Of a stretch of 64,000 bases of DNA, positions 24,864 through 37,373 are shown one piece after another (positions within the stretch are counted from its first letter, which is position 1; every line of letters starts with the position of its first letter). This DNA comes from Crassaminicella thermophila (GTDB lineage Bacteria > Bacillota > Clostridia > Peptostreptococcales > Thermotaleaceae): NCBI RefSeq assembly GCF_008152325.1, contig NZ_CP042243.1, positions 1,183,026 through 1,247,025 of the forward strand, written 5' to 3'. Below the pieces are notes generated by a model that saw nothing but the letters and a program-made list of their open reading frames with translations, had not been told where the DNA came from and searched no databases. The translations under genes and the position numbers were made by a program.

Positions 24864-25755
24864 GCCAAGTAAGAAATGAAACCTACTATTTAGCAATTAA
24901 AGAATTACATGATATACAGTTATATCCAATTTTTACACTATGTGAAATAGCTGGTGTTCAAAAGGTCATCTTATTATAAATGGTTGAATCGTAAAAGAGA
25001 GTAAAAATGAGAACTTTAACAAAAAACTTATACCTTTAATTCAAGAAGCCTATGAAGAACGAGATGGTATTCTTGGCTATCGTCAAATGACAATTAAACT
25101 AAACAGAGAGAACAATTTTAGAGTAAATCATAAGAGAATTTATCGCTTAATGACTATTTTAGGCCTAAAGTCGGTATGTCGAAAGAAGAAGAAAAAATAT
25201 ATTAAGTCAACTCCTGAAGTTATAGCGGAAAACATTTTAAATAGAAACTTTAAAGCAGATAAGTTTGGTCAGAAGTGGGTTACAGATGTTACGGAATTTA
25301 AATATGGCAATAATCAAAAAAGCATACTTAAGTGCAATAATTGATCTATCGGATAAAAGCGTAGTTTCTTTTGTGATTGGTAAATCTAATAACAATCCTT
25401 TAGTATTTAAAACATTTGATCTTGCACATGAGAATTATCCAGATGAAAAGCCTATTTTTCATAGTGATCGTGGATTTCAGTATACATCAAAAAAATATTT
25501 CGAAAGAAGTTGGATAAATCAGAAATGATTCAGAGCATGTCCCGAGTTGGACGATGTATTGACAACGGACCAATGGAAGCATTCTGGGGTATGCTGAAAT
25601 CAGAGATGTACTATTTAAGAAAATTCTATACTTATGAAGAATTAGAAACAGCAGTAACTAATTACATTGAATACTACAATAATCACAGATATCAAAAACG
25701 TCTTGGTTGTATGACACCTTTAGAATACAGACAATACCTATGTAATGTTGCATAA
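24850..25755 (+). pseudogene. IS3 orfB (DDE transposase), frameshifted
   Basis: The catalytic subunit, overlapping the end of orfA as usual for IS3, where a -1 ribosomal frameshift makes OrfAB. Catalytic residues are all still encoded: first D in KWVTDVTEF, second D in HSDRGFQY, and E in the segment after CIDNGPMEAFWG (KSEMYY). The frame is broken near 24960, 25005, 25320 (in a run of A residues) and 25497, so no active transposase can be made. The C-terminus with YIEYYNNHRYQKRLG and TPLEYR is intact. Confidence 0.88.
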
Positions 25756-25853: not shown

Positions 25854-26900
25854 CTATGCTTTGATTTCGTGTATTAAATTTTGTGCAAATTGTTTAGCTA
25901 TATGTTCAATTTTAGGTACATATTTTACAGTTTTTGGATCATTTGCGGTAGCCATAATTGTAAAGTAAGGTGGAAGTCTAAAACCTTTATTAATATTTAA
26001 AGCATCAATTAGTTGTTTTGCAATACAATCACTTCCTGAGTTACCAGATACAATAACTGAAAAAAGTGTTTTATCATAAAGAGGTGTTTTTCTATATAAA
26101 GAGGTTAATCGATTGATGACAGCCATAAGGTTTGCTGATACAGAATCATTATAATTTGGACACAACCAAAGAATTGCATCTGCTTTTTCGATAGCTGGTA
26201 AAATTTCTTCAACCATAAATCCTCCATAAAAACAAGTATTTTGCTTGCTATAATGGATACATGTTTTAAAGGAACATCCAATACAATCAAGAACAGTTCC
26301 ATTTTCTACATGAAGTTCCTTTATTTCGTAGTTACAAAGATGTTTTTTTATCATAGTCCAAAGCATAAGCGTATTAGATGTCTTATAAGAACTCGAATGT
26401 AGAGCTAGAATTTTAGGATTTGAAAGTAATAAAGGATGATCTTCTATTAATCTGATTACTAGTTGTTTGCTAAGTTTAGAACAAATTTCTTCTAAAGGGA
26501 GATCATAAGTTTTTTGCCATGTACGAAAATTATTTAGGTTACCTGTAGCTTCAATCATAGGATGTCCTATGAAGCGACATCCTAACTGGTTGGCTAAAAA
26601 AATAATATTTTTTGCAACACTTTTGGTATAGAGTTCATTGTAGCTATGAATAAGTATCCCAGCAGTTGATCCAGAAAGCGCATCTGTTCCTCTAGCATAT
26701 AATTTAGAAAGTATTTCAAATAAGGGACCATTAAAGCCTACTTCATTTAGTTGAATGACAAAGAGTATTTTTTTGTTTTTCAAATCAGGCATATCTTTAG
26801 AAGTTTTAATCACAATGGTAGATAAATTAGAGGTTGCAGCTTCAACCATCTTTAATAGTTGATTAGATATTTCCCCAGGAATAATAACATATAGGCTCAT
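25854..26900 (-). CDS. Flavodoxin-like NAD(P)H oxidoreductase with cysteine cluster
   Basis: A 348-residue protein, third gene of the large-protein operon. The C-terminal half (about 160-348) is an NADPH-dependent FMN reductase/iron-sulfur flavoprotein-like fold: a flavin phosphate loop near ILALHSSSYKTSNT, then CIGC-x4-C-x8-C (CIGCSFKTCIHYSKQNTC), the pattern of a possible Fe-S site, then ILWLCPNYNDSVSANL, the usual flavin-binding segment. The N-terminal 150 residues look like a second, degenerate flavodoxin-like unit and are not typical of the family. The start ATG overlaps the dehydrogenase stop (ATGA), so translation is coupled. Electron donor and acceptor are unknown. Confidence 0.75.
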   Translation of the reverse strand: MSLYVIIPGEISNQLLKMVEAATSNLSTIVIKTSKDMPDLKNKKILFVIQLNEVGFNGPLFEILSKLYARGTDALSGSTAGILIHSYNELYTKSVAKNIIFLANQLGCRFIGHPMIEATGNLNNFRTWQKTYDLPLEEICSKLSKQLVIRLIEDHPLLLSNPKILALHSSSYKTSNTLMLWTMIKKHLCNYEIKELHVENGTVLDCIGCSFKTCIHYSKQNTCFYGGFMVEEILPAIEKADAILWLCPNYNDSVSANLMAVINRLTSLYRKTPLYDKTLFSVIVSGNSGSDCIAKQLIDALNINKGFRLPPYFTIMATANDPKTVKYVPKIEHIAKQFAQNLIHEIKA

Positions 26901-28138
26901 AGAATTGCCATTAAGCTTTCATAAGTATGTTTTAATCTATCGAATAATGTTTTGGGGAAATCCAATCTTTCTATTTCTATTCCCGTTGCAGTTAGCCTGT
27001 TTTTTGCACCCATAAATACGCCTCCCATATATGTTGTACTATAGTGCCACTCACCATTTATTGTAGCAATAAGAGATAAACTACCAGAAGATAGTGCAGG
27101 AGCGATATAGGGTTTAAAACCGGTAGCACGAACTTTAAGATTTGCTTTTTTTGCTTTATCTGTAAGATCTAAAGATAGTTTATCATTATAATTCTGAATA
27201 CTATCAGCAATTATAAGTCCTTCTCCATGAGGACCAAATGCTCTTCCTTCGTTTAAATAATGCAGTGTTTCAGGTTGTTTTTTTGCGTAATAAGCAGCAC
27301 GAGCATGCATTACGCCAAGACCATAACCTCTTATTTGATTTGCAGCTAGTCCTTTAAAATCCATATTACCTGTATTATCCATATTGCTTTCTAAAAAAGC
27401 AACTTTACACAATAAATCTACAGGATCAGAAACAACAGCAAATATACCTTTAAAATTATTTTCTCTTGCCATCTTTGCATAAATTTTCATAATTTGAGCA
27501 TTGCCTTCAAATTGTGCAATTCTAACATCCTTTTTTTCTTTTCCTACTGGTGGTACACCTACAGAAATACAGAAAACAAACATGTCACAATCAAAAATCT
27601 CACTTTCATTAATAATATAAACATCTGGGTATATATTATGACTATTGGGTGGAAGAATTTGATTTATTTCATGTTCCCAGCGATTTAAATTATTTTCATT
27701 CTTGTCATAAATTCCTATTTTTGAAATTTTGTCTGATCCTAGTAAGCGAAGGCCTGTTACAAGCGTTCCTCCAACATCCCCCATACCAACTACATTAATT
27801 TTCCATTTTTCTGGAATTTTGTAATCTAGTACATCCTTCCAAGTAGGATATGCTATATTAATTGTTGAAACTTTTCCATCTTTCATTCTAGAAATGAGCC
27901 AGTCTGGAAAAGTATATTTTGATTCTTGTTTTTGAAGTAGTGAAAGTCCCTCTTCTTTTAAAAAAGCAAGAGATGGATCTGTAACTGAAAAGCTTTTTCG
28001 AGAAAATTTAGGATTTAGTTGGTGTAATATGTAAAGCGTATCTTGACTTTTTTTTGCAGTTTCTTCAGAGATTTCAGAAAGATTAGGATGTTTTCGATTT
28101 GAAATCAGTATTTTATTTTTTAGTATATAATAATACAT
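26897..28138 (-). CDS. Lactate/malate dehydrogenase-like oxidoreductase with N-terminal extension
   Basis: A 413-residue protein, second gene of the operon, 11 bases after the large gene. The first 110 residues are an extension not found in ordinary LDH or MDH. A Rossmann site follows (VVGMGDVGG, about 116-124), then the family landmarks in order: an SDPVDLL segment (cf. TNPVD), NQIRGYGLGVMHARA, and FGPHGEG, which carries the catalytic histidine like GEHGDS of LDH. It should oxidise or reduce a 2-hydroxy acid-like group with NAD(P). The usual substrate-specificity loop is altered (GVPPVGKEKKDVRI), so lactate or malate need not be the substrate. Confidence 0.8.
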   Translation of the reverse strand: MYYYILKNKILISNRKHPNLSEISEETAKKSQDTLYILHQLNPKFSRKSFSVTDPSLAFLKEEGLSLLQKQESKYTFPDWLISRMKDGKVSTINIAYPTWKDVLDYKIPEKWKINVVGMGDVGGTLVTGLRLLGSDKISKIGIYDKNENNLNRWEHEINQILPPNSHNIYPDVYIINESEIFDCDMFVFCISVGVPPVGKEKKDVRIAQFEGNAQIMKIYAKMARENNFKGIFAVVSDPVDLLCKVAFLESNMDNTGNMDFKGLAANQIRGYGLGVMHARAAYYAKKQPETLHYLNEGRAFGPHGEGLIIADSIQNYNDKLSLDLTDKAKKANLKVRATGFKPYIAPALSSGSLSLIATINGEWHYSTTYMGGVFMGAKNRLTATGIEIERLDFPKTLFDRLKHTYESLMAIL

Positions 28139-28149
28139 AGTTTGCCTCC

Positions 28150-31100
28150 TTATCTGCCTAAAATTGCTTGCTCTAAACGGTTTAACTGTTCTAAATCATT
28201 TTCTAAGTAATGAGATGGACTAAGATTTAAATCATAGTGCATATTTTTCCCATGATCTGGGCATCGTGGAGAAATAAATATTTCTCCTAATGAAGCGAGT
28301 GTTAAATTTCTTTCATGCATACTATGATATTCATTTTCGATTATTGTTAGTATATCCATTGCATTTTGAATGCAAACTTTTGATAAGTTATATTGTGCGT
28401 CTTTTGAAGCATCTTTAATAAATGTAGGAGATGTATAAGGTAATATTAAATTTATTGATGGTACTAGATTTCTTTGAGGTGTAGTACCTCGCCATATTGT
28501 ATCTCCTCCAAAAAATGGATATAATAAATTTTCATTAAACCAAGCTTTTAACTTAGGTATATAGTATGCACTATCTACTTCTCTATTTTGCCTATCCATT
28601 AACTCCTTTCCTCTAGCAGAAAGTATTCCAACGATTGTTTTTTTCACTTTTATGTTTTCTTTATTCAGTAGAGGATGAATAACGTTATTGCGGTAGCCTT
28701 TATGTAGAAGATCATCAACCAAGATTATAGGTTTATTAAAGGATGCTAACATCTTTATTTGTATTTCTAGATCCGGATAGTGAGGGAACGGACCTATTAG
28801 AAAATCTTTCATATGAGGTAAAAATAATTTTTCTGTATGAAGCGCTTTTGTAACTGTATTTGGTATAATAGAACGACTTAAAATAGTACCAAATGGAACA
28901 CACATAGCAGGTCCTAGTTTGCGCGGTGTTAGTGGTGTTGTTGGTACACTGTTTTCAGCACAGATTTTTCTAACAAGTGTTTCGTGAAGAATATTCCTAT
29001 TAAATGATAATATGAGATTTCCTGGATACAAATTTGTTAATGATTTTTGAAGCTTTTTTCTTGAACGCATGATTGCTTGCTGTACATTTTTATTGCTTCT
29101 AAAAGGTTCTTTAATATTTGGTTCCATATCAAGATTAAGTGTACAAGGGGAACTCATATTTACAATAAAAACAGGATTGTATTCATTGCTATAAGGCAAT
29201 TTTACAAAGCCTTGAAACTTTAGTATTTCTTGTAAAGATGATGATATATATTCTGGTATCATATTATGAAAAACAGCATATTCATAATCCTTTGATAAAC
29301 AGAATGCAAGTGTTTCAGTAAGTAGTATTTGTTCATAGGTTTCTTTATTTTCTGATGGTCGGACAAAAATTCCGTCCATTAAAACAATTCTTCCTTGCGA
29401 ATGCTCTCGAATATATTCTGATACTGTGCTGTCCTTAAGATCATGAAATAAAGTGTTTAGTCTTACCCAATGATGGGCTGCAAACCCGATTATTTTTCTA
29501 TTTTGATTCAGATCTCTTAGTAACAATAATCTAGCAGAAGGTTTATGGAAAAATTCAATTAGTTTTGTTCGAGCTATATCATAATTATTATAAAATTTTG
29601 AAGAAAGTTCATTGATTAATTCAATATCAAAATCTTCAATCAGTTCAATTTTTATTGACTTTGCTTGCATAAGGGTTTTGTATAGTGGTTCTCTTCTGTA
29701 AAAACCATTTTCATAAATATATTTTTGTGCTAATGGGTCAACCAAACTTGAAATATCTCTATTTTCATCTATATAGTTGCGTATTTGTGTAGAACTGATT
29801 TCATCATAGCGTGCAGGAAGTTGTAAAATAGTAACTTTACTATGGATTTTTTTGATAGCTTTTGAAAGGGTTATATTATTCTTTTTAATAGGTAAAAGAT
29901 GATTCCTCTCAAAAATAACATGAGGAAAAGTATGTATAGAACCTTCTGTTTTATCTGTTTGATAGCTTGTAGCATTTAAAATTACATCACTTCCTACAAC
30001 AATATATACCTCAGAGTGTGGAAAATTTTGTTTTAGTGTGTTTAGATCTTTTTTATTTCCAATGTTTATAGGAAATTCTTCAGGATATAAGTAAATATTA
30101 AGTTCATCTGCAATAGACATATTTACAATATTTTTTCTAAGCAGGTGTGGTAGTGTTTGCTTTGACCATGAAAATTCATCAATAGCAAGATAAACTTCAA
30201 ATCCAAGATCTCTTACAGCTTTAGCAATTTGCTTATGACTTAAAGAGAATGGGTCAAAAGTACCAGGGAAAAATGCTACTTTATGAGGAATTGTAAGACA
30301 ATAATCACCTTTAAAAAATATGTAATCTGAGATGAATCTATATATATGATGCAACGCAGCAGCATTTCCTAAAAGTAATAGTGTTTCTTCTTTATTATCT
30401 GTTAATAATGTAAGAATTTTTTTCGCTATAAGCTGGAAAATATGATTTTTTTCTTCAAGATTAAGATATTCTGATCCAAATATGATTTTTCCAATAACAG
30501 AAAAGGCACCTTGCTTTACGCGAGAATTGTAATTTACAAGGCCATTTAATAAAATACCAAGCATTTTCATTAGACGTTCATCATAAAAGTCTATATTCTC
30601 TTGAAATAAAATTGCATACTTTGGATAGTTTGCAATTGCAACACCAATGGTTTTTAGAAGTAAAGAACTAAGCACAGGGTTTGATTGTTTTATCTTGTCA
30701 ATAAAATCATCAATTAATTCATCTAATTCAACCGGTTGAAGTGTTAAGATTAATTGTCCAAGATAAGGAGGAATATATTCAGTAAATTGATAACCATCTA
30801 ATTCAAGTGCACTCAGTAGTTCTACAGCTACTTCATTTCTTTGTTCAAATGATAAATAAGGTACGATTTCTAAAATAGCTTCGCCAGCTCGAGCTCTTAT
30901 TTTATCTGAAGAACTTACTTTTAATAGATTACAAAAATGCAGGGCTGTTTGAAGTCCATTACTTTCAGGTGTATCAAGAGCATGTTCTAACAAAACTTCT
31001 ATTTGTACGTTTTTGATGACTGGGTCTGTTGCAGATTTTAGATTGCTTAAAAACATAGCAGGAATTTTTTTCTTATCCATTTGAAAGAAATTTGAATATT

Positions 31101-33066
31101 TCATCACTACTGGACTATTTAGATTTAATTGTTTAATAATTTTAAGCTTTAGAAAATTTTCTGAAGGATACGCTGATGGAAACATTTCATTCGTAAGGAT
31201 TGATGAAATTTTTTTAGTAAAATAAGCATTGTTACGAATTTTAGGTATTAAGTTATAGGTAACTTCTAAAGCAGCAATCTTTAAATGATGATTTTTTTCT
31301 TCTAACATTGCAAACAAAAAATCAAATAAAACTGAAAAACGCAAATCACAATTTGCAATAGGAATATATTTAAGTGTTTCAAGAAGATAAAAAGCAATAT
31401 TTTCTTTTTTGTATATGTCTTTATGATAATACTTTAGTAAAGTAGTTATATAATTGTCTACTTGATGATTATTGTGATTATGTTTAATTTGCTTAAATAA
31501 AGAAGCAATCATTGTACTTAGACAATAGCCAATCCATCTACGATGTTTTGGAATAATTTTATGATCAGGGAAAATAAAGAGCTTTAGGTATTTTTCTAAT
31601 AATTCCAAACTTGTAATATCTGGATCAAACAAGGTGACATTTTCGGGGACTTCTTTACGGTAAACTTCATCAAACATAGCGATTAAAGCACCAATAAGCT
31701 CTGCACAGTGCTTTCTTATATCATCTTCTGGATGAATCAAATTCTCATACAAAAAATTTATTGTAATGAGTTTCTGTTTCTGTGTTAAATATGTAGAATA
31801 TTCATCAAAAATTCGTAGATATTCACGAAGGTTTGTCCAATCTTTTTCGCTACGTGCTAATTGTAAAATAGCATCCAGAGAAAATTCGTCGCGTAGTTGA
31901 TACATAAGATTAATATTATGATAAATAGAAAGATACTTTACGTTATCAATGATTTCTTTTCCCTGCATTAAAGCATAGTGGAATTTTCGCTTTTGATTTT
32001 TAACACGATGTAAATCTTTAGAAGAATTAACATCTATATTTATACCTAGGTGAATCATATAATCTTCGAAATCTTTTAATTTAGCATATACACGACCATA
32101 TCTTTTTTCTTTTTCAGTATCTAAGTTATCTAGTTTTTCTAAAATAACACGAAAAGATTCTGAAAGAGTGTATATATGCATTTTTGCATTTCCATTTTGA
32201 TCAAAACGATTTTTAACACGAAAATCTGAATAAATAAGTATCAAGGATTCTAATGATAAATTTTCCAATTCTAAATCCCATACAGAATGATTTAATGCAA
32301 TATGGCGAATGTAAACAATATCATGATTTGAAAACCATAAATCTGTGTAGTAATAATGAAGATAAGGGACTCTTGTTTGTTCCCGTTTTGTACATCCATA
32401 TTTGCCAATATCATGTCCAGCTGTAGAACCAGAAACTCTTCCTAAATCAATAGGAAGTCCACAATTTTGTAATTGTCGTGCAATAAAAAGAGCGAGATAA
32501 TGTACACCACATATATGATCAATTGTATTATATCCTGCTACTTCACTGTTTAATTTCATCATTTCATAGACATAATCAGTATGAAATGCAGCTAAAAAAC
32601 GGTTATATTCGGTAGGATCTTCAAGAGCATTTTTTTCTTCTTGTGTTAAAAAAATCAAAGGATATTTGCTTTGCCAAGTATTATCATTAGCATGTTTTTG
32701 AAATTCAGATACGATTCTTAATAAATCTAAATATAAGTAACAAGCACTATTAAGATTACTTCTTAGAGGTTCCTCAACAGCATGAGGGAAAGACTTAGAA
32801 AGTACAAATTGATATATATAAGAAAGCCAATTTGTTGGAGACTCATTATTTGCTAATTCATTGAGCATATTTTCACATAAACTTAATACAGCTTTGCAAC
32901 TATAGTCTTTAGTATTTACCATGTTGTTTATACAATGAAAAAAAGAAATGTTTTCGATGTGTTTTTTTATAAACTTTTCATTTAGTGATAGTTTTTCTAA
33001 CCATACGGGATCTAGAATTTTACTTGTAATTTGATTGTATAATTCCATAACAGACAGATTATTCAT
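28150..33066 (-). CDS. Giant multidomain protein: HD-like, helical repeats, NMNAT-like, GNAT-like, PRT-like
   Basis: A 1638-residue cytoplasmic protein heading a three-gene operon. Residues about 180-310 look like an HD domain (H184; GHDIGKYG with HD at 218-219; LNHSVW; IYSDFRVK). About 400-900 is all-helical and repetitive, like HEAT repeats. About 930-1110 is a nicotinate/nicotinamide mononucleotide adenylyltransferase-like domain: GTFDPFSLSHK (935-945) and ISSTQIRNY (SST at 1091-1093), the two signatures of that family, with VGSDVILN between. About 1125-1290 is GNAT-like (weak). About 1330-1560 is phosphoribosyltransferase-like (ILVDDLLHKGYR, DD at 1451-1452), though without the usual threonines. 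It starts at ATG after AAGGAGG. Similar large proteins occur in clostridia by memory; I know no assigned function. Confidence 0.75.
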   Translation of the reverse strand: MNNLSVMELYNQITSKILDPVWLEKLSLNEKFIKKHIENISFFHCINNMVNTKDYSCKAVLSLCENMLNELANNESPTNWLSYIYQFVLSKSFPHAVEEPLRSNLNSACYLYLDLLRIVSEFQKHANDNTWQSKYPLIFLTQEEKNALEDPTEYNRFLAAFHTDYVYEMMKLNSEVAGYNTIDHICGVHYLALFIARQLQNCGLPIDLGRVSGSTAGHDIGKYGCTKREQTRVPYLHYYYTDLWFSNHDIVYIRHIALNHSVWDLELENLSLESLILIYSDFRVKNRFDQNGNAKMHIYTLSESFRVILEKLDNLDTEKEKRYGRVYAKLKDFEDYMIHLGINIDVNSSKDLHRVKNQKRKFHYALMQGKEIIDNVKYLSIYHNINLMYQLRDEFSLDAILQLARSEKDWTNLREYLRIFDEYSTYLTQKQKLITINFLYENLIHPEDDIRKHCAELIGALIAMFDEVYRKEVPENVTLFDPDITSLELLEKYLKLFIFPDHKIIPKHRRWIGYCLSTMIASLFKQIKHNHNNHQVDNYITTLLKYYHKDIYKKENIAFYLLETLKYIPIANCDLRFSVLFDFLFAMLEEKNHHLKIAALEVTYNLIPKIRNNAYFTKKISSILTNEMFPSAYPSENFLKLKIIKQLNLNSPVVMKYSNFFQMDKKKIPAMFLSNLKSATDPVIKNVQIEVLLEHALDTPESNGLQTALHFCNLLKVSSSDKIRARAGEAILEIVPYLSFEQRNEVAVELLSALELDGYQFTEYIPPYLGQLILTLQPVELDELIDDFIDKIKQSNPVLSSLLLKTIGVAIANYPKYAILFQENIDFYDERLMKMLGILLNGLVNYNSRVKQGAFSVIGKIIFGSEYLNLEEKNHIFQLIAKKILTLLTDNKEETLLLLGNAAALHHIYRFISDYIFFKGDYCLTIPHKVAFFPGTFDPFSLSHKQIAKAVRDLGFEVYLAIDEFSWSKQTLPHLLRKNIVNMSIADELNIYLYPEEFPINIGNKKDLNTLKQNFPHSEVYIVVGSDVILNATSYQTDKTEGSIHTFPHVIFERNHLLPIKKNNITLSKAIKKIHSKVTILQLPARYDEISSTQIRNYIDENRDISSLVDPLAQKYIYENGFYRREPLYKTLMQAKSIKIELIEDFDIELINELSSKFYNNYDIARTKLIEFFHKPSARLLLLRDLNQNRKIIGFAAHHWVRLNTLFHDLKDSTVSEYIREHSQGRIVLMDGIFVRPSENKETYEQILLTETLAFCLSKDYEYAVFHNMIPEYISSSLQEILKFQGFVKLPYSNEYNPVFIVNMSSPCTLNLDMEPNIKEPFRSNKNVQQAIMRSRKKLQKSLTNLYPGNLILSFNRNILHETLVRKICAENSVPTTPLTPRKLGPAMCVPFGTILSRSIIPNTVTKALHTEKLFLPHMKDFLIGPFPHYPDLEIQIKMLASFNKPIILVDDLLHKGYRNNVIHPLLNKENIKVKKTIVGILSARGKELMDRQNREVDSAYYIPKLKAWFNENLLYPFFGGDTIWRGTTPQRNLVPSINLILPYTSPTFIKDASKDAQYNLSKVCIQNAMDILTIIENEYHSMHERNLTLASLGEIFISPRCPDHGKNMHYDLNLSPSHYLENDLEQLNRLEQAILGR

Positions 33067-33213
33067 TGGATCCTCCTTAAAATTATATGGAAATTATTTA
33101 TAAAATGATAAATTAAGATTAAAGTATTTACATTTATTTCTATGATTATTATAACGTAAAATATATATGTATGTATATTAGATATGTGATTTTAAAACTT
33201 TATATATATGAAA

Positions 33214-33586: not shown

Positions 33587-34627
33587 ATGAGAAACACAGA
33601 TGCTGTTATAATTAAAAAGGCGATCGTTCATATATTAGATAGAAATGCTGATGCACCCATACTTACAGATTTTGAACAAGAAGTACAAGAAGATATCCAT
33701 GAGTTTTTAGAAAAACATATCATAAAATCTTTACAAGATGAAGAAAATAAAAAGGCGAAGTTTCGTGGAGGATTAAGTATAGTAAAAGATGCTTGCCTTG
33801 AGATATTCAGAGATGAAGAACAATTTGTAAAATGTTCTCAAGAAATAGCCAATCAGTTGTTTAAAGCTATGAAGAGTAATAATAATATTTCTTCTGCTGA
33901 CCTTGTTGTATGTTTATATACTGCTTCTGATAAAAACTATATAGGGATACTAAAACTAGACTATAAAAAATCTTTTATTCATGAGATTGAATATGTTGAT
34001 GATAAATTTAAAATATCTATTGTACCTCAGATGATTAGTTTGCCTGGAATGAGCCAAAGATTACAAAAATGTGCATTTGTAAAAGAAATAAATGAAGATG
34101 ACGAATATGATTTAATTGTTTTAGATAATCAAGTATATGGAAAAGATGAAGATGCAGAAATTGCACGGTTTTTTGTAAATAATTTTTTAAATTGTAACGT
34201 ACTGATAGATAATAGAGATAAAACAAAGCTTTTTAAAAAAGTAACAGAAAAATGGACAAGAAAAAATTTAAAGGAAGATATTGAAAAAGCTCAAGAAGTA
34301 AGAGAAGAAGCGATAGCATCTTTGAAAAATTGTGCTGAAATAGATTTAGAGAAGTTCACCCAAAATGTTTTTGGAAATGATGTTGAAATGCAGCAAAATT
34401 TTATTCAGCATTTGGATCAAGAAGGGTTGAAATTAGAAGCATTTGACATTGATAAGTCTTGGGTTGAGAAAAAAATGAAAAAGAGAATTATGAAAACAGA
34501 TACAGGTATAGAGATAAAAGGAGAGTATGAGGATTTAGAAGATAAAATGAAATTTGAAATAGTAAGAAATGGAGATGGAACTATTAATATTATTATAAAG
34601 AATGTAAGAAGCTTTCAAGAACGCTAA
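33587..34627 (+). CDS. Nucleoid-associated protein, NdpA/YejK family
   Basis: A 346-residue member of the 37-kDa nucleoid-associated protein family. It opens in the usual way (a basic strand AVIIKKAIVHILD followed by an acidic, helical EVQEDIHEFLEKHI) and has a central beta region (KNYIGILKLDYKKSFIHEI) followed by VDDKFKI. In Proteobacteria the protein binds DNA; its role in Firmicutes is not established. The C-terminal part is highly charged. It starts at ATG after GAGGAGAG and is followed 15 bases later by an unknown gene, probably on the same transcript. NdpA homologues near defence or mobile genes can be phage-related, but nothing here suggests that. Confidence 0.8.
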   Translation: MRNTDAVIIKKAIVHILDRNADAPILTDFEQEVQEDIHEFLEKHIIKSLQDEENKKAKFRGGLSIVKDACLEIFRDEEQFVKCSQEIANQLFKAMKSNNNISSADLVVCLYTASDKNYIGILKLDYKKSFIHEIEYVDDKFKISIVPQMISLPGMSQRLQKCAFVKEINEDDEYDLIVLDNQVYGKDEDAEIARFFVNNFLNCNVLIDNRDKTKLFKKVTEKWTRKNLKEDIEKAQEVREEAIASLKNCAEIDLEKFTQNVFGNDVEMQQNFIQHLDQEGLKLEAFDIDKSWVEKKMKKRIMKTDTGIEIKGEYEDLEDKMKFEIVRNGDGTINIIIKNVRSFQER

Positions 34628-34642
34628 AGGAGGCAATAGATT

Positions 34643-35086
34643 ATGTTAAAATTTTTAAATATTTCAAAGCAAAATATAACAATTTTAAAAGGAACTTTGG
34701 TTCATATTAATGCACATTTTATTACGGATACTTCTCAATCATGGATTTTTAGTAATACAAAGGCAGAGGAAGGAATATGTGAAGTATTTATTCATTATAT
34801 TTCAGCTGAGAATAATAGAAAAATGATGATGGAACAACCATTATGGAAAAGATATATTGATGCTGAATTGCAGAATATAGAAAAAAAAGAACAGTTTTTT
34901 GAAAATATCTGTGAACCTATTATTCATGTTATTATAAATATACATGATAGTTATAGAGAGTTATCAAATGATTTGTTGGATTTTATATATGGTGTACTAA
35001 AAAAGAATAATCCTAATGTGGAAGAAATCATCATAGATAGATTTATTTATACAGAAATGATAGAATCAGAAGATAATAAATTTTAA
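34643..35086 (+). CDS. Hypothetical protein, 147 residues
   Basis: Not recognised. Mixed alpha/beta, acidic toward the C-terminus, no signal peptide or membrane helix, no cysteine motif. It starts at ATG after AAAGGAGGC and follows the NdpA-type gene by 15 bases, so they form an operon; a role with that DNA-associated protein is a guess from position only. Confidence 0.75.
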   Translation: MLKFLNISKQNITILKGTLVHINAHFITDTSQSWIFSNTKAEEGICEVFIHYISAENNRKMMMEQPLWKRYIDAELQNIEKKEQFFENICEPIIHVIINIHDSYRELSNDLLDFIYGVLKKNNPNVEEIIIDRFIYTEMIESEDNKF

Positions 35087-37141: not shown

Positions 37142-37169
37142 TATAATGGTGTATAATATATTTACAATC

Positions 37170-37343
37170 AGTCCTGGGATGTACGTTAAAGCCTGTAAAT
37201 TCAACCTACAGAAGACATCCGGGAGCTCGTGTTCCTTTATGGATGAAATGCCTCCAAAGAGAGGACTTCAGAAGTAAAGGATAGATCACCCACTTAGGTG
37301 AGTGGCGGGTGTGAATTTATGGCGGACGGCATTCTGGGGAGTT
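37170..37343 (+). ncRNA. ssrS: 6S RNA-like small RNA
   Basis: About 175 bases that form one long irregular hairpin. The ends pair: TCCT-GGGATGT near the 5' end with GCATTCTGGGGA at the 3' end (11 pairs, one bulged G). Inside are small hairpins (CTGTA..TACAG; TCACCC..GGGTGTGA) and a distal stem (TCCTTTA with TAAAGGA) capped by CCTC..GAGG, leaving an open central region, as in 6S RNA, which binds RNA polymerase-sigma-A. The elements ATTCAACC, GATAGATCACCC and GGGTGTGAATT agree with clostridial 6S RNAs as I remember them. TATAAT at 37152-37157 precedes it and a strong terminator follows. No open frame of note. Confidence 0.75.
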
Positions 37344-37373
37344 AAAAAAGTCTTTCAATGAAAGACTTTTTTT
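37344..37373. terminator. Bidirectional terminator between the small RNA and spoVB
   Basis: AAAAAAGTCTTTC pairs perfectly with GAAAGACTTTTTT around a 3-base AAT loop. Confidence 0.92.

Follow-up and report, generated by a model that had tools for sequence, protein, structure and literature searches.

A conserved three-gene operon of Clostridia and Atribacterota encoding a multidomain NMNAT-type protein, an LDH-like dehydrogenase and a flavoprotein

The operon and its three products

The window analysed, a 64,000-nucleotide stretch of the Crassaminicella thermophila chromosome, contains an operon of about 7 kb comprising three tightly packed ORFs, all on the minus strand. The large gene is separated by an 11-base gap from the gene for an LDH-like protein, which in turn overlaps the flavoprotein gene by 4 bases, exactly the coupled arrangement described in an earlier note made from the sequence. 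The genes and the main features of their products are as follows.

33072..33078, minus strand: ribosome-binding site AAGGAGG upstream of the large gene (direct reading)
28150..33066, minus strand: large protein gene (1638 aa; HD, HEAT-like, NMNAT, GNAT and PRT regions)
32197..32529, minus strand: HD phosphohydrolase-like domain, residues about 180–290 (invariant residues, model, weak fold matches, YqeK profile alignment)
30367..31779, minus strand: helical-repeat (HEAT-like) spacer, residues about 430–900 (sub-threshold HEAT match, armadillo-like fold matches, low conservation)
29692..30282, minus strand: NMNAT-type nucleotidyltransferase domain, residues about 929–1125 (TIGR00482 E 5.8e-12, below the curated cut-off; invariant motifs)
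29131..29661, minus strand: GNAT-fold domain, residues about 1136–1312 (predicted structure; Foldseek E 6e-6 to GNAT enzymes)
28432..29091, minus strand: type I phosphoribosyltransferase (PRT)-fold domain, residues about 1326–1545 (Foldseek E 2.5e-4 to xanthine PRTase)
26897..28138, minus strand: LDH/MDH-like dehydrogenase gene (413 aa; variable N-terminal extension of ~110 aa)
25854..26900, minus strand: gene for a flavodoxin-like, FMN-reductase-type protein (348 aa; FMN_red domain at residues 162–315)
26232..26285, minus strand: four invariant cysteines of the flavoprotein, 206, 209, 214 and 223, spaced CX2CX4CX8C (alignment of 23 homologues)

Riboswitch control was considered and rejected, none being detected upstream of the operon in the window or near the large gene in eight other loci. 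A broken IS3-type transposase remnant, whose HTH_21 and integrase-core parts occupy separate frames, lies just downstream of the operon (window 25087–25755). The gene for a nucleoid-associated protein of the NA37 type and a small unknown one (33587–35086) are divergent from the operon and adjoin it only in close relatives, and a 6S RNA (Rfam RF00013, 69 bits) is located on the plus strand at 37168–37344.

Parts of the large protein with no Pfam match were investigated using an alignment of 90 homologues and structure prediction of two segments. Residues H184, H218, D219, K222 and D281 were invariant in all 90 sequences and include the HD metal-ligand signature H184...H218-D219...D281. The model of residues 110–470 (pLDDT 92) was almost wholly helical, and its HD segment matched 1xx7 (probability 0.90) and the clostridial YqeK 3ccg (probability 0.84) with E values of 0.5–1.1, short of the threshold of 0.001. 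Profile alignment of the large protein with YqeK superimposed the HD motif, and the YqeK profile TIGR00488 was not among the NCBIfam hits. The likely HD domain of the earlier note is therefore borne out by an invariant motif, and is the called domain with the least formal support. The helical-repeat spacer that follows is poorly conserved; it gave a sub-threshold Pfam HEAT match (E 0.02), and its modelled start gave armadillo-like fold matches.

Both motifs quoted in the earlier note as NMNAT signatures, GTFDPFSLSHK and ISSTQIRNY, are found in the large protein. Profile matches covered residues 932–1123 and comprised, besides TIGR00482, Pfam CTP_transf_like (E 3.4e-7, above cut-off). The domain scored best against NadD-type enzymes, with a TIGR00482 score of 46 bits against a curated cut-off of 112.45 bits that places it outside NadD proper. 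Motifs conserved in the family were PG[TSA]FDPF[ST]x[SG]HK, DEFSWSK, GSDV and ISSTxIR. The (H/T)xGH-type and ISSTxxR motifs place the domain in the NMNAT-type superfamily; HxGH is mostly represented by (S/T)x(S/G)H and, together with ISSTxIR, is kept in nearly all copies. A threonine likewise replaces the first histidine of HxGH in phosphopantetheine adenylyltransferase. Judged by these motifs, copies of the large protein that adjoin the redox pair have an intact NMNAT site.

Residues 1118–1638 were modelled by AlphaFold with pLDDT 91 and pTM 0.91, revealing a GNAT fold followed by a type I PRT fold. Neither segment had a Pfam match, and the folds that had been proposed for them were upheld by the Foldseek searches of the model. 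Of the domain calls made earlier, NMNAT was thus recovered by profile, and GNAT and PRT by predicted structure, the HD call resting on its motif with weak fold support. The CoA-binding loop R/QxxGxG/A of GNAT enzymes was absent, by inspection, from the 90-sequence consensus. The PRPP loop has diverged to VDDLLHKGYR, in which the loop threonines are replaced; of the two aspartates the first is retained, some Clostridium have Asn or Thr at the second, and the motif is therefore not intact. These degenerate co-substrate motifs indicate that PRPP chemistry and acyl transfer may be absent, and the two folded domains may bind rather than catalyse.

The LDH/MDH-type call was confirmed for the LDH-like protein by Pfam Ldh_1_N (E 5.6e-9) and by solved LDH/MDH structures (E 1.7e-8); its score against the L-lactate dehydrogenase family TIGR01771 was 32.4 bits, compared with a curated cut-off of 303.55. 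In the homologue alignment it retained the equivalents of Arg109 and Arg171 (substrate-binding) and His195 (catalytic), and on this basis it should bind a carboxylate. The Asp168 equivalent is an invariant Met and that of Asn140 is Asp, so that only the His of the catalytic Asp168–His195 pair is retained. The N-terminal extension noted previously was found in most homologues, but it is variable and missing in one family. The flavodoxin-like protein matched FMN_red (PF03358; E 7.4e-20, 71.5 bits against a gathering score of 24), and the four clustered cysteines attributed to it proved invariant in 23 homologues; they possibly form a metal-cluster site. No solved relative was found by profile search at E 0.01, and hhalign gave no support for the flavodoxin fold being duplicated within the 348-aa protein.

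Linkage, distribution and reduced copies

Gene neighbourhoods were compared across 123 loci pooled from two collections, not all of them independent. The trio was found to travel together: all three genes were present in order at 98 loci, and 15 of the other 25 had little downstream sequence left (contig ends). The 10 incomplete loci with downstream room were five with orphan large genes (L026, L027, L028, L101 and L045), four that lacked the flavoprotein (L093, L129, L130 and L132) and L078. The L078 record ends inside an inserted glutamate-synthase cluster; the arrangement is complete in L164, and the glutamate-synthase genes that separate the large gene from the redox pair in these two genomes were attributed to an insertion within a single lineage. 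The median gap within the trio was 9 bases, and the second junction was an overlap of exactly 4 bases in 39 of the 98 loci. There was no conserved flanking gene, the commonest non-module family occurring at 11 of the 123 loci; the module is self-contained.

Among 291 class-wide genomes, the large protein was present in 25 and the LDH-like protein in 24, with 24 shared (Fisher p 3e-34, a value that ignores relatedness). The lone discordant genome, with the large protein and no LDH-like protein, has an assembly that is 84 % complete, in which the large gene is partial. Distances between pairs of sequences were correlated across the three proteins (0.60–0.84), as expected under shared descent. 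The trio is therefore one conserved unit, and its genes almost certainly serve one pathway.

The module is not rare, being widespread in Clostridia and Atribacterota. A full-length large protein was found in most of the order's families that were sampled, with two copies in the window's own genome. In the phylum of an Atribacterota-labelled genome, 19 of 50 genomes carried the large protein. Beyond the class, two genomes had an intact trio, with 32–40 % identity in the large protein. The seven Atribacterota-labelled rows of the tree clustered together next to clostridial sequences, a placement suggestive of transfer. Two database records appear to be misdescribed: the 2.6-Mb 'plasmid' of Acetoanaerobium noterae (NZ_CP154629.1, locus L155; four annotated features), which carries the full trio, is probably a mislabelled chromosome, and the title 'Calditrichales bacterium MX18-03' (L088, genome G246) looks wrong, since the genome groups with the window's own class.

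Orphan large genes without the redox pair occurred in at least three places in the tree, a reading that includes some long branches. In two of these lineages (L166/L168, and the deep rows L045, L160 and L162) the NMNAT motifs were damaged to various degrees and HD was intact; in the third (L026, L027, L028 and L101) both NMNAT and HD were intact. Conversely, L161 and L163 have lost HD and kept NMNAT, PRT, the LDH-like protein and the flavoprotein, with a second, HD-containing copy in the same genomes. Taken together, orphan decay and the HD-less copies indicate that NMNAT and the redox pair tend to stay together, and, to judge by these sequences, the HD domain may do its work from another polypeptide.

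Several reduced loci have distinctive neighbours. The second full-length large gene of the window's genome (G000:C1:126494-131362; L026 8489-13372) lacks the redox pair and has an APH/choline-kinase-like gene 15 bases upstream, which overlaps the orphan in L028 and L101; in three of the four loci of this lineage, the orphan is overlapped or directly adjoined by such a small-molecule kinase-like gene. The divergent 1456-aa relative with damaged NMNAT motifs (L045 5523-9893) is followed by two proteins in place of the redox pair, one unknown (348 aa) and the other alanyl-tRNA-editing-like. Two Atribacterota records that are nearly identical have a nicotinamidase-like gene directly after the LDH-like gene (L130 7137-7679 and L132 12405-12950); the flavoprotein is missing there, and an ordinary flavodoxin occurs further on. 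This neighbour is a weak pointer to a pyridine substrate.

Possible functions of the module

Canonical NadD scored above cut-off in all 30 carriers tested, and YqeK was present in 16 of 16. Replacement of NadD by the module was thus excluded, and since carriers possess ordinary NadD and YqeK, the module is not a supplier of ordinary NAD; its substrate or role must differ. Four other associations were considered and set aside. LarC of the nickel-pincer (Lar) pathway was found in 20 of 30 carriers and 13 of 29 non-carriers (p 0.12), neither de novo NAD synthesis (NadA) nor sporulation (Spo0A) was significantly associated with presence of the large protein, and a defence or phage origin gained no support, the three proteins having no PADLOC match and no phage record.

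The reading that we tentatively prefer, while giving it somewhat less than an even chance, is that the three genes form a dedicated pathway which makes, checks or remodels an NAD-like dinucleotide, coupled to two redox enzymes. In this scheme the PRT fold would bind a ribose-phosphate nucleotide or its precursor, and the NMNAT domain would join the bound mononucleotide to a nucleoside triphosphate. By analogy with the action of YqeK on NadD products, the HD domain would hydrolyse wrong or surplus dinucleotides. The LDH-like enzyme and the FMN protein with its four cysteines would carry out a redox step on the product or on a carboxylate partner, with the helical repeat serving as a scaffold and the GNAT fold probably as a binding domain, not an acetyl-CoA enzyme. 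The proposal draws on gene order, co-occurrence, the trio outside the class, joint retention of NMNAT and the redox pair, coexisting NadD and YqeK, the NadD–YqeK precedent and the nicotinamidase-like neighbour. Standing against it are the degenerate PRPP and GNAT CoA loops, the orphan lineage whose NMNAT site is intact without a redox pair, the four loci with downstream room and no flavoprotein, and the NadA and LarC profiles, which do not track the module.

The two degenerate co-substrate motifs would accord with a large protein that is a nucleotide-sensing regulator or scaffold, somewhat like NadR, whose HD, NMNAT, GNAT and PRT domains mainly bind nucleotides and which organises or controls the redox enzymes in response to the energy or redox state. 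The long helical-repeat region and the presence of the ordinary NAD enzymes fit such a role, but the NMNAT and HD residues are almost unchanged in the family down to ~37 % identity, which suggests catalysis, and we regard this explanation as rather unlikely. The same anatomy could also serve to repair or salvage NAD(P)(H) or related dinucleotides that have been damaged, with HD cleaving, NMNAT rebuilding and the redox pair resetting the oxidation state. The YqeK precedent is itself one of damage control, but profile scans of the three proteins gave no match to an NADHX-repair family, and this role seems quite unlikely. Attachment of a nucleotide to a small acid, in which NMNAT would activate or link a hydroxy acid from the LDH-like enzyme to give a nucleotide-linked metabolite, accords with the Arg/Arg/His equivalents expected to bind a carboxylate. 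It is rendered improbable by the NadD-type affinity of the NMNAT domain, by the lack of any further biosynthetic gene conserved nearby and by the changed Asp168 and Asn140 equivalents.

Within the preferred scheme of an NAD-like dinucleotide, the boldest version is that a non-nicotinate base is converted to a mononucleotide, adenylylated by NMNAT, proofread by HD and used by the operon's own dehydrogenase and flavoprotein as a new redox cofactor. Such a product is highly doubtful; if real, it would be categorically new, an addition to the short list of redox cofactors. Of the dedicated pathway advanced in the earlier note, the single functional unit is upheld by gene order, co-occurrence and correlated decay, whilst its PRPP-type chemistry is called into question by the degenerate motif of the PRT domain. 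The operon has been kept together in many families of clostridia and in Atribacterota alongside ordinary NAD enzymes, and points to a widespread, apparently uncharacterised nucleotide-linked redox pathway, for which the pattern of domain decay yields specific testable predictions on which parts act together.

Comparison with known systems

In agreement with the earlier note, no system with these three genes was found described in the open-access papers searched. Every domain belongs to a known superfamily, and the nearest working model is known. The LDH-like protein shares with L-lactate and malate dehydrogenases the Rossmann NAD-binding domain and the Arg109, Arg171 and His195 equivalents, but differs in scoring far below the family cut-off, in the Asp168-to-Met and Asn140-to-Asp changes and in its extra N-terminal region. 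The flavoprotein resembles NADPH-dependent FMN reductases and iron-sulfur flavoproteins in its FMN_red domain and four clustered cysteines, and differs from them in having an extra N-terminal half; the cysteine motif of iron-sulfur flavoproteins is compact, with a spacing different from CX2CX4CX8C. The PRT domain has the predicted fold and PRPP-loop position of xanthine PRTase (type I), but unlike type I PRTs its loop reads DDLLHKGYR and the second Asp is not conserved. NadR, a multidomain protein with an NMNAT-type domain and regulatory potential, resembles the large protein, in which, however, profile scans detected neither a helix-turn-helix nor a ribosylnicotinamide kinase domain.

In the mycoplasma NadD–YqeK fusion, the HD domain proofreads NadD by removing wrong dinucleotides (PMC9426524). 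Like the large protein, this fusion combines NMNAT-type and HD phosphohydrolase-type domains in a single polypeptide (PMC9426524). In the large protein, by contrast, the order of the two is reversed, a long helical repeat lies between them and GNAT and PRT folds follow, whilst its gene is linked to two redox genes and coexists with ordinary NadD and YqeK.
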